IMG/VR virus record: IMGVR_UViG_3300009068_000117
Location: 1-31,208 of that record
Source of the DNA: a virus
Reading direction: 5' to 3' (one strand)
Length of the DNA: 31,208 bases
In this document: in pieces, positions 26,767 to 29,021 of the stretch
Layout of the letters: each line of letters opens with the position of its first letter
Position numbering within the stretch: position 1 is the first letter of the stretch
Translations under genes and position numbers: made by a program
Notes under the pieces: generated by a model
Seen by the model: the letters and a program-made list of their open reading frames with translations, nothing else
Told to the model about the DNA's origin: nothing
Database searches by the model: none

Positions 26767-28422
26767 CTAACTTTCAAAAGTTTCTCGCTCAGGCGGCTCT
26801 TGTTGATACGCCATCTGCATAATCTGCATAGCTAGGTTCGGGTCTACACCGGGGGCCATCTGACCATCTCCCATATCCTGACCGGGAAGTATCAGAGGCT
26901 GGCCGTCCGGCGTCATGCCGGTGGCCTGAATAATGAACTGAGATGTCTGAGCCTGAATGAGGTTAAGAGCAGCCTGCTCCTTCGTGTCCTCAATCATCTC
27001 TTCGTTGATCTCAGCGATCTTCTGCTCAGCAAACATCTCACCCAGATCCCGCAGAGCGCCACGCTTGGACTCAAGGCCCATAGCCATACGAGCCTGAATC
27101 TCGTTGATCTTGATAAGCACATCAACCGGAAGCGGCTCGGGCCAGTGAACGGTGGTCTGGTAAGAGACCGGATCTTCGGGATTGATAACCTCATACTGTC
27201 CCATACGCAGGGGAACAGTCGCCACATAGGGGTTGTACTGAAGGGCCTCAGGCTCCTTGAAAACGGCGTGAAGGATAATCAGTTCGTTGATGCGCTTGAA
27301 CAGGCGGCTGTACTGAGACTTCTTCAGTCCATACTTCTGCATAAGCGGCTGATACTGAACAGCCAGAGCGGTACCGCTGGTATTGGAGATGGGCTGCATC
27401 TGTCCGAGGGCCGAAGCAGGAACACCGGTCATCTCGTGCATAGCCTGCTTGATGAGTTCCATATAGCCCATGATTCCAGCGAAGTTGGTATCCATCGTAA
27501 GGTTCTCAATACGAGCGTCCTTAGTACCGATGGTCCAGACCTTCTTTGGCCCCTTTTCAAGGTTCGATGCCTTGGCACCGATGATCACCGTCACGGGGCT
27601 TCCGTGATAGTTGATGATCTCTGAGACCTCAGTGGCCTTCTCATTGAACTCACGGTTCAGCGAGATGATGTCCGTAATGTCCGCAAGGCCCCACGGTGAA
27701 GAAGCCACAGGTATGTTCTGCGTATAGGCGATAGGAATCTCGCCAAGCGGGTTGGGGCGGGCGTCAATACGCTCGTCATTGATGTACTCCTCAATCATGT
27801 CCTCGGTCAGGATCTCCGTGTAGGTGAAGACCTGACGGGCACCGTCAGAGGCAGTACCCCAGAACTTGTACTTCAGCTTGAAACGGATCAGGCGAGTACG
27901 GTCGTGTGGATGCCACTCTGGGAAACAAAAGGCAGGGTTCAGCGGAAGGATGCGGAACTTACCGGGACGCACACGACCAGCGGCATCTTGGAAAGGCTCC
28001 TCGTAAGCAACCTTGACGAACACATCACCAGAGACGGAGCCATGTTGCCCCATTTCCCACAGAGTGGTCTGCTTGTCGTTGTCGTGCTCCCAAGCCCGCT
28101 TGAGAAGGTAGGGGATGATTCCTGCGGTGGCTTCGGGAGAACCGAAATTAACGCCCTTACCGAAAGTGAAGTTCACCATGTAGTCAGCGAAGGCTTTGAC
28201 GTAATTAAACGAAAGCTGCGCTTCACCAAGCTCACGCCGATACGCCCAGTGATGTCCTAGGTACCTTTATAGCCAAGCCCAGTTACTTGCATAACGGTTA
28301 AGTCGAGGTCCATGGACCTCAAATTCTTCGTCAGCAAGTTCAACTAGGCCCAAGGGACTGATCGCTATTGTTAGATCTGATGCCGCCGCTCGGTAAGAGG
28401 GAGGATAGAAATTTAGAGACAC
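26767..28422 (-). CDS. Portal protein, reading frame interrupted by one in-frame TAA
   Basis: The portal forms the 12-subunit ring through which DNA enters and leaves. The frame starts at GTG 28422 (GGAGG at 28437-28433), reads SLNFYPPSYRAAASDL... to NRYASNWAWL, meets TAA at 28269-28267, and continues in the same frame with LGHHWAYRRELGEAQLSFNY, VKAFADYMVNFTFGKGVNFG and the rest of a normal portal, ending at 26767. Typical portal segments are SWGLADITDIISLNREFNEK-like (ADITDIISLNREFNEKATEV), and GVPASALGQMQPISNTSGTA. An ATG at 28179 would give a 470-aa product that lacks the conserved N-terminal segment and has no ribosome site. The first frame alone is 51 codons. A bypass, readthrough or disruptive insertion is possible; see the junction entry. 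The GTG overlaps the HNH stop. Confidence 0.85.
28258..28272 (-). other. Portal junction: CTA-TAA-AGG-TAC-CTA, candidate bypass or scar
   Basis: The codons read TGG CTA TAA AGG TAC CTA GGA. A stop directly after CTA, and a second CTA nine bases after it, would let a peptidyl-tRNA-Leu hop from the first to the second CTA, giving Trp-Leu-Gly-His-His-Trp. This resembles the T4 gene 60 layout in miniature (matched take-off/landing codons, stop right after take-off). Removing nine bases (CTATAAAGG) instead gives Trp-Tyr-Leu-Gly. A cut-and-repair scar, sequencing error or simple readthrough are alternatives. Confidence 0.5.
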
Positions 28423-28946
28423 TGTCCGGTCACCTCCTCTCCTACTACGGCACTATCACGCTGACGCTGTGCCTTCAAATAATCGATAGCCCGCTGTAAA
28501 ACTTCCACATCATCCTTGAAGTAACCTAGACCCGGATTACAAGTATGACATAAGATTCCCCTTACCTTACCATTAGTATGGTCGTGGTCGACGTGGGGGC
28601 GGGATTCTACAAGAGGAGTAAGGCATATAGCACAACGGCCTAATTGAGAATCATAAAGATTATCCCAATCTTGAGCCGATAGGCCGTACTTCTTCTTCAA
28701 CTTATTATTGCGCTCATAAGACTTCTGCTCAGGAGTTTCTCGCCTGATATTTTGAATCAGTAAACGAGTGTGCTTATTTCTACATTTATTAGAACAGTAG
28801 AAATCATTCCTGAGGCGTGCGTGGTAAACAAATTCCCCAGCTTCAATAATCCCCTCACATTTTGGATGAGCACAGTTAACGGCATCTGAAAGGATGAGTA
28901 CCTTCCTAAGCCGTCCTGTTCCATCATCTATAAGTTGAAAAGACAT
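28413..28946 (-). CDS. HNH/endonuclease VII-type nuclease, free-standing
   Basis: This 177-aa protein has an N-terminal zinc finger (Cys25, Cys30, Cys51, Cys55 in NCAHPKC and YCSNKC) and a C-terminal recombination endonuclease VII/HNH domain at 85-157: KYGLSAQDWDNLYDSQLGRC, Cys105/Cys108, the catalytic HVDHDH (118-123), then VRGILCHTCNPGLGYFKDD with Cys133/Cys136. This ββα-metal core nicks or cuts DNA. Genes of this type are often mobile homing endonucleases. It lies directly upstream of the portal, overlapping the portal GTG by 10 bases, and has its own promoter close to ATG 28946. It could be a homing nuclease that cuts the neighbouring portal locus, or a resolving enzyme for packaging; the first fits the location. 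Confidence 0.92.
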   Translation of the reverse strand: MSFQLIDDGTGRLRKVLILSDAVNCAHPKCEGIIEAGEFVYHARLRNDFYCSNKCRNKHTRLLIQNIRRETPEQKSYERNNKLKKKYGLSAQDWDNLYDSQLGRCAICLTPLVESRPHVDHDHTNGKVRGILCHTCNPGLGYFKDDVEVLQRAIDYLKAQRQRDSAVVGEEVTGQCL

Positions 28947-28954
28947 TAGCCACC

Positions 28955-28963
28955 ACTATAGCA
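28955..28963 (-). promoter_or_regulatory. Extended -10 promoter of the HNH gene
   Basis: On the minus strand TGC TATAGT is followed by 8 bases and then ATG 28946, so transcription would start within 1-3 bases of the start codon (nearly leaderless). The TG extension compensates for the lack of a good -35 box. Confidence 0.5.
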
Positions 28964-28974
28964 GAAAGTTTTGG

Positions 28975-28987
28975 AAATCTAGGATTT
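28975..28987. promoter_or_regulatory. Palindrome between divergent promoters
   Basis: AAATC-TAG-GATTT (28975-28987) has perfect 5-bp arms and lies between the two divergent -10 boxes, near the expected -35 region of the HNH promoter and just before the -35 of the plus-strand promoter. It could bind a regulator of both genes; short length makes chance possible. Confidence 0.25.
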
Positions 28988-28992
28988 AGGGG

Positions 28993-29021
28993 TTGCACTC
29001 AAGGATTCGGTACGCTAGGGT
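28993..29021 (+). promoter_or_regulatory. Leaderless promoter of the plus-strand gene
   Basis: TTGCAC (28993-28998), a 17-base spacer and TAGGGT (29016-29021) are followed by six bases and ATG 29028. Transcription would start at the A of ATG. There is no ribosome binding site, so leaderless translation, common in actinobacteria, is expected. Confidence 0.55.

Follow-up and report, generated by a model that had tools for sequence, protein, structure and literature searches.

The window examined here is a 31,208-nucleotide (nt) stretch of viral DNA (IMG/VR record IMGVR_UViG_3300009068_000117, positions 1 to 31,208) whose minus strand carries a phage portal gene broken near its 5' end by a stop codon. 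The larger, downstream part (26767..28266) encodes an SPP1 gp6-like portal (PF05133, E = 2e-23; 83.4 bits against a curated cut-off of 25.5), and the upstream part (28267..28422) comprises 51 codons from GTG 28422 to an in-frame TAA. On the minus strand the sequence runs from that GTG to AAC TGG (28275-28273) CTA TAA (28269-28267) AGG TAC CTA (28260-28258) GGA CAT CAC TGG, with the portal frame open upstream of the TAA back to the GTG and downstream to a stop at 26767, which confirms the sequence-only reading of one frame continuing past a single stop. Residues 2-50 of the upstream part match those of two relatives, L003 and L004, in a different codon usage (L-numbers denote related portal loci, G-numbers contigs). 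The stop lies in a 9-nt insert, CTATAAAGG (28264..28272, minus strand), that is missing from insert-free relatives; because these have TGG TAC/TAT CTA in place of TGG CTATAAAGG TAC CTA, the extra segment, first put at 9-12 bases, is real and exactly 9 nt long (28272-28264). Apart from the insert, the surrounding segment is strongly conserved and does not vary in length, and Tyr51 is invariant in 22 intact portals. Overlapping the portal GTG, on the same strand, is a gene for an Endonuclease VII (Endo VII)-type nuclease (28413..28946; PF02945, 7e-24). The window contains no Rfam match and no transfer RNA (tRNA) gene, suppressor tRNAs included; a group I intron in its portal gene was rejected on the missing Rfam match and on a length of 9 nt, far too short. 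No solved portal structure was matched by sequence, and an AlphaFold model of an intact portal was of low confidence (predicted local distance difference test, pLDDT, 58; below 45 at the N-terminus) and was not used.

Using protein-to-DNA alignment that permits insertions of any length, we screened 187 distinct portals and found that the interruption recurs. The window insert is present in identical form in L001, L002 and L018, on three further contigs from metagenomes, and in a form differing by one base (ATATAAAGG) in L034, whose portal is 72% identical. Across the family the portal gene is interrupted at about eight places, mostly in codons 28-55, by at least 18 distinct inserts of 4-11 nt. 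Applied to the large terminase, this analysis showed 0 interruptions among 131 loci, and the portal inserts are therefore not assembly noise. A stop within an essential gene ordinarily signals a pseudogene or an error, and mis-sequencing was among the options first listed; yet the identical insert in four independent contigs, the clean terminase control and the selection described below argue against a portal that is simply broken, a reading we find scarcely credible. Nor did we see a second portal copy: the insert-bearing contigs G001 and G002 (about 108 kb each) hold a single one.

Coding sequence on either side of the insert is under purifying selection. The ratio of nonsynonymous to synonymous divergence (dN/dS, omega) over codons 51-500 is 0.03 between the window and L001 and 0.09 between the window and L018, while codons 2-50 of L044, L045 and L063, which have two inserts in common, differ by a dS of 0.45-0.56 with a dN of 0. 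Thus genes whose inserts break the frame or hold a stop are still selected on both sides of the break, as translational bypass requires. Insert portals with readable upstream sequence retain a purine-rich ribosome site and a start before codon 1, and in nearly all insert portals the starts beyond the insert are distant or lack such sites. For the window, the first in-frame starts past the insert are ATG 28179, as was noted earlier, and a neighbouring GTG; they lie 28-29 codons on, and no Shine-Dalgarno site precedes them. In L034 a single weak candidate, a TTG, follows 16 codons past the insert, and in L018 the first start comes only 80 codons past it. Internal initiation, a pseudogene and a second copy are all disfavoured because selection acts on both sides, the upstream starts are kept and G001 and G002 show only one portal. 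A split gene, giving a 51-residue product and a portal that starts within the downstream part at ATG 28179, has the in-frame ATG to recommend it, as well as the tolerance of T4-like phages for some nuclease-split genes (PMC2988022), but it would discard some of the most conserved residues of the portal protein, and the N-terminal codons of L044, L045 and L063 have remained free of amino-acid change while their inserts persist; we regard it as very improbable.

The inserts share a codon pattern. Written as the putative take-off codon, a colon and the insert, those other than the window type are TGG:AGACCCTAAGG (L028/L029; 11 nt and related to the window insert), TGG:TAGTGG (L019), CAT:TAGCTC (L251), GAA:CTACCGAA (L022), GAG:TTACCGAG (L049), GAG:TTAAGAG (L126), GAA:TTACCGAA (L067), GAA:TTATGAA (L056), GAA:TAGCGAA (L115), GAG:TTAGGTAG (L069), GAA:TAAGTGCA (L057), CTT:TTACCTC (L045), CGA:TTACGC together with TAT:TTAC (L044, L045 and L063), AAT:TTAC (L096) and, at codon 173, CGA:TTACCGC (L067 and L069); the L045 portal has three. 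The 6 nt of TTACGC leave the frame intact, and translation straight through them is conceivable. L138 is the same element as L063 and is located in a sequenced Saccharothrix genome. Among the 18 inserts, the take-off codon is followed by TTA in 10, by a stop in 4, by CTA in 2, and by ATA and AGA in 1 each. The high-GC genomes examined make little use of TTA, ATA, AGA and CTA, and TTA is nearly absent (0 of 19,248 codons in G003, 1 of 16,736 in G004 and 0 of 4,371 in G010). In 11 of the 18, the codon that closes the insert is a full match to the take-off codon, counting wobble pairs, and in the remaining 7 it agrees in two of three bases; for this agreement, a simple model that ignores alignment sliding and relatedness gives an indicative chance of about 1e-9 or less. 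In several cases the two codons are synonyms and not copies of each other (CTT/CTC, TAT/TAC, CGA/CGC), which re-pairing of one tRNA fits better than DNA duplication does. The core of the TTA-type inserts is usually TTAC or TTACC, and slow decoding of TTA alone leaves the following C or CC unexplained. Contig G006, the source of L096 and of L157, carries an array of more than 20 tRNA genes and a transfer-messenger RNA gene (L157 8226-13611) with no tRNA for UUA, and its portal insert places TTA after the take-off codon. Freshwater-type portals also show single in-frame stops without any insertion, at codon 173 in L262 (CGC TAA CGC), the place of the L067 and L069 insert, and at codon 369 in L300 (CAA TAG GCT).

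For the window, comparison with L034 and L028 places the proposed take-off codon at TGG 28273..28275 and the proposed landing codon at AGG 28264..28266 (both minus strand), which shares two of three bases with TGG; decoding would resume at TAC 28263 and so retain the invariant Tyr51-Leu52-Gly53. We favour this hop, which is probably the one used, because it restores the ancestral sequence alike in the window, L034 and L028, where the codon after TGG is CTA, ATA or AGA. The sequence-only reading had instead proposed a 12-nt hop over the TAA between matched codons, CTA 28272 to CTA 28260, that would give Trp-Leu-Gly. Such a hop has a stop in the A site and a perfect codon match in the window, L001, L002 and L018, but the matched codons are not conserved in L034 (ATA...CTG) or L028 (CCC...CTT), where it is impossible, and it would delete Tyr51; we consider it improbable and the Trp-Leu-Gly product probably wrong. 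Readthrough, previously ranked next best, would decode the TAA and add Leu-X-Arg before a retained Tyr51. It is possible for the 9-nt inserts considered alone, which preserve the frame in the window and L034, but it cannot restore the frame with the 11-nt insert of L028 or with 4-, 7- and 8-nt inserts elsewhere, would lengthen a length-invariant segment and lacks a tRNA gene in the window, so that on the whole we judge it unlikely. The insert lengths that readthrough cannot accommodate are also consistent with the earlier view that TAA has not been reassigned here.

The nuclease upstream links the insert to mobility. Its Endo VII motif residues (D120, H121, H123, R129 and N137, and the pairs C105/C108 and C133/C136) are invariant in four proteins, it matches the solved T4 Endo VII by sequence, and a dN/dS of 0.09 against L018 indicates purifying selection. 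An Endo VII-type nuclease lies directly upstream of the portal in the window, L001, L018, L034 and L096, remnants persist in L002, L019 and L028, and different HNH nucleases take this position in L115 and L251; in all, 10 of the 19 insert portals with readable upstream sequence have a nuclease or a remnant. Of the 134 upstream proteins of insert-free portals, none has a catalytic HNH domain by Pfam; PHROGs matches a few of them, and the two that match phrog_374 (HNH endonuclease, best E 1e-10) could not be assigned to loci with certainty, so that one or two exceptions may exist. The association is significant over loci (Fisher p = 6e-11) and with lineages collapsed under our own conservative grouping (p = 0.002). 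The PHROGs matches that were identified are zinc-finger proteins with no evident catalytic domain, which stand directly upstream of uninterrupted portals in L079 (1930-2880), L081 (1977-2885) and L082 (1522-2280); they resemble nuclease DNA-binding domains and are possibly related to the cassette nucleases.

Comparison of occupied and empty sites indicates what moves. L002 and L004 are 98.3% identical over 4.65 kb downstream and 99.2% over 1.25 kb upstream, whereas their portal codons 1-50 are 76% identical and encode the same protein apart from the start; conversely, the window and L018 share 99% identity across codons 1-50 and 81-85% past the insert. From this pair and this step in identity we conclude that the nuclease travels as a unit with the recoded 5' end of the portal and with the insert, which lies at the right edge of the unit, and we propose a mobile cassette of the nuclease gene, recoded portal codons 1-50 and the 9-nt insert (28264..28946, minus strand). 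The leader and first codons of the nuclease gene are a copy of the portal leader (28929..29010, minus strand, shares about 93% identity with the leader and start of the portal gene in the empty-site relative L004), and the L034 nuclease frame opens with a copy of the portal N-terminus. Sporadic occurrence of the gene and co-conversion of flanking target sequence, both seen in L002/L004 and the window/L018, fit our proposal that the nuclease is a free-standing homing endonuclease. In L002 the nuclease has been cut to 79 residues by an in-frame internal deletion (2615-2854), and the portal insert is retained.

We think it likely, from these comparisons, that the portal functions as a single gene, with ribosomes passing over its 9-nt insert, and that the insert is part of a mobile cassette with the nuclease. 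Past TGG 28275-28273 the ribosome would encounter the slow codon CTA and then TAA; the peptidyl-tRNA-Trp would depart from TGG, slide 9 nt and re-pair at AGG 28266-28264 through two of three pairs, and decoding would restart at TAC to give the ancestral ...NWAW-YLGHHW.... Family-wide, a stall at a slow or stop codon may let the peptidyl-tRNA slip to a near-matching codon at which translation resumes. The nuclease would cut insert-free portal genes near codons 45-55, with repair copying the cassette in; the insert, and perhaps the recoding too, would shield the cassette's own copy, and bypass would keep the essential portal usable despite the insert. Insert portals with no nuclease beside them may once have had one and survived its loss, or may put bypass to regulatory use. 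Indeed, the same mechanism could serve mainly to limit or time portal synthesis through slow codons such as UUA, with the nuclease neighbours secondary. Passages in two papers describe UUA as the rarest codon and as developmentally regulated in Streptomyces (PMC4932002, PMC2000904), UUA bypass has been suggested for the terminase of Streptomyces phage Hau3 (PMC5009743), and nine insert portals have upstream sequence but no adjacent nuclease; however, stops, CTA, ATA and AGA serve as well, the inserts are patchy among close relatives and the association with nuclease genes is strong, and we therefore hold a primarily regulatory role to be a minority prospect.

Several observations weigh against bypass within a nuclease cassette. 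Besides the nine portals just mentioned, RNA structure at the insert site is not outstanding (z -1.1, with a hairpin some 30 nt upstream), the window contig does not use CTA especially rarely (49 of 9,964 codons at 48% GC), and TGG to AGG is a match in only two of three bases, where CTA to CTA would be a full one. The codon-173 site is far from the others.

In a scan of the same genomes for similar hops in other genes, the portal sites were recovered and the other TTA matches examined (L138 13369, G005 40808 and G003 6599) resembled non-coding upstream frames; whole-contig protein-guided screens were too noisy in high-GC DNA, and rarer cases elsewhere are possible. Endo VII-type genes also stand beside the major capsid gene, about 3.7-3.8 kb past the portal start in L055, L092, L251, L260 and L311 and about 2.6 kb past it in L095. 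The capsid frame there is uninterrupted, differences in the start region aside, and we found no convincing interruptions of the capsid gene beside these nucleases. Group I introns (RF00028) occur in L044 (3717-3974, 4943-5196), L063 (5567-5808, 6113-6365), L210 (6104-6344, 6908-7150) and L137 (12703-12959), several of them within the major capsid gene of portal-insert relatives.

To our knowledge, efficient programmed bypass in bacteriophage rests essentially on one case, T4 gene 60. The likeness to it drawn in the sequence-only reading, and bypass itself, are well supported by the comparative data, including a homing-type nuclease that travels with the insert. As in gene 60/mobA, a short non-coding insert interrupts an essential phage gene (near codon 46-50 in T4) just downstream of an HNH-type nuclease gene, the insert is proposed to block cleavage and the ribosome re-pairs downstream (PMC5009743, PMC2988022). 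In contrast to the 50 nt, the GGA/GGA pair and the nascent-peptide and stem-loop stimulators of gene 60, the portal inserts have 4-11 nt, variable codons, an A site occupied by a stop or rare codon and no evident structure, and many occur in one gene family. The byps of Magnusiomyces capitatus mitochondria are likewise numerous short skipped inserts in essential genes, with imperfect matches tolerated and a slow or unused A-site codon (PMC5009743), but they involve organelle ribosomes and 12 genes, whereas the portal inserts belong to phages and, as far as seen, to the portal gene only. The Hau3 candidate shares the rare UUA trigger and a phage of high-GC actinobacteria, but concerns the terminase, and the passage describing it does not mention recurrent inserts or a linked nuclease (PMC5009743). 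Collaborative homing of F-CphI and S-PM2 psbA, which shows that Endo VII-motif nucleases are able to home, likewise pairs a free-standing nuclease of this kind with an adjoining target gene whose interruption blocks cleavage, except that the block is an intron (PMC6083498) rather than, as here, a 9-nt insert with no intron. In Corndog-type phages, a tape-measure gene whose translation is unexplained has an HNH gene upstream of it (PMC4351075). Hopping over stops and hungry codons in E. coli relies on matched codons around a stop or slow codon, exactly the form of TGG TAG TGG in L019, but in engineered constructs, and a 2016 review knew of no natural in-frame stop hop (PMC5009743). Our search, which ranged over open-access literature, turned up no account of 4-11-nt bypass inserts recurring in phage genes.

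Beyond the window, we give roughly even credence to a recurrent class of phage mini-bypass elements, inserts of 4-11 nt that combine a stop or rare codon with a matching landing codon, that have been gained many times in one essential gene and that allow a number of unrelated nucleases of HNH type to propagate as selfish cassettes. If so, these elements would include natural in-frame stop hops, as in L019, and their short inserts would offer simple constructs for measuring what ribosome hopping requires. Bypass would account for 'broken' portal genes that annotation would label pseudogenes, and cassettes of nuclease, recoded target and bypass would parallel, in nature, a gene drive with rescue. 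At least 18 natural short inserts with a shared logic would, if this holds, point to a general route for selfish genes into essential genes.
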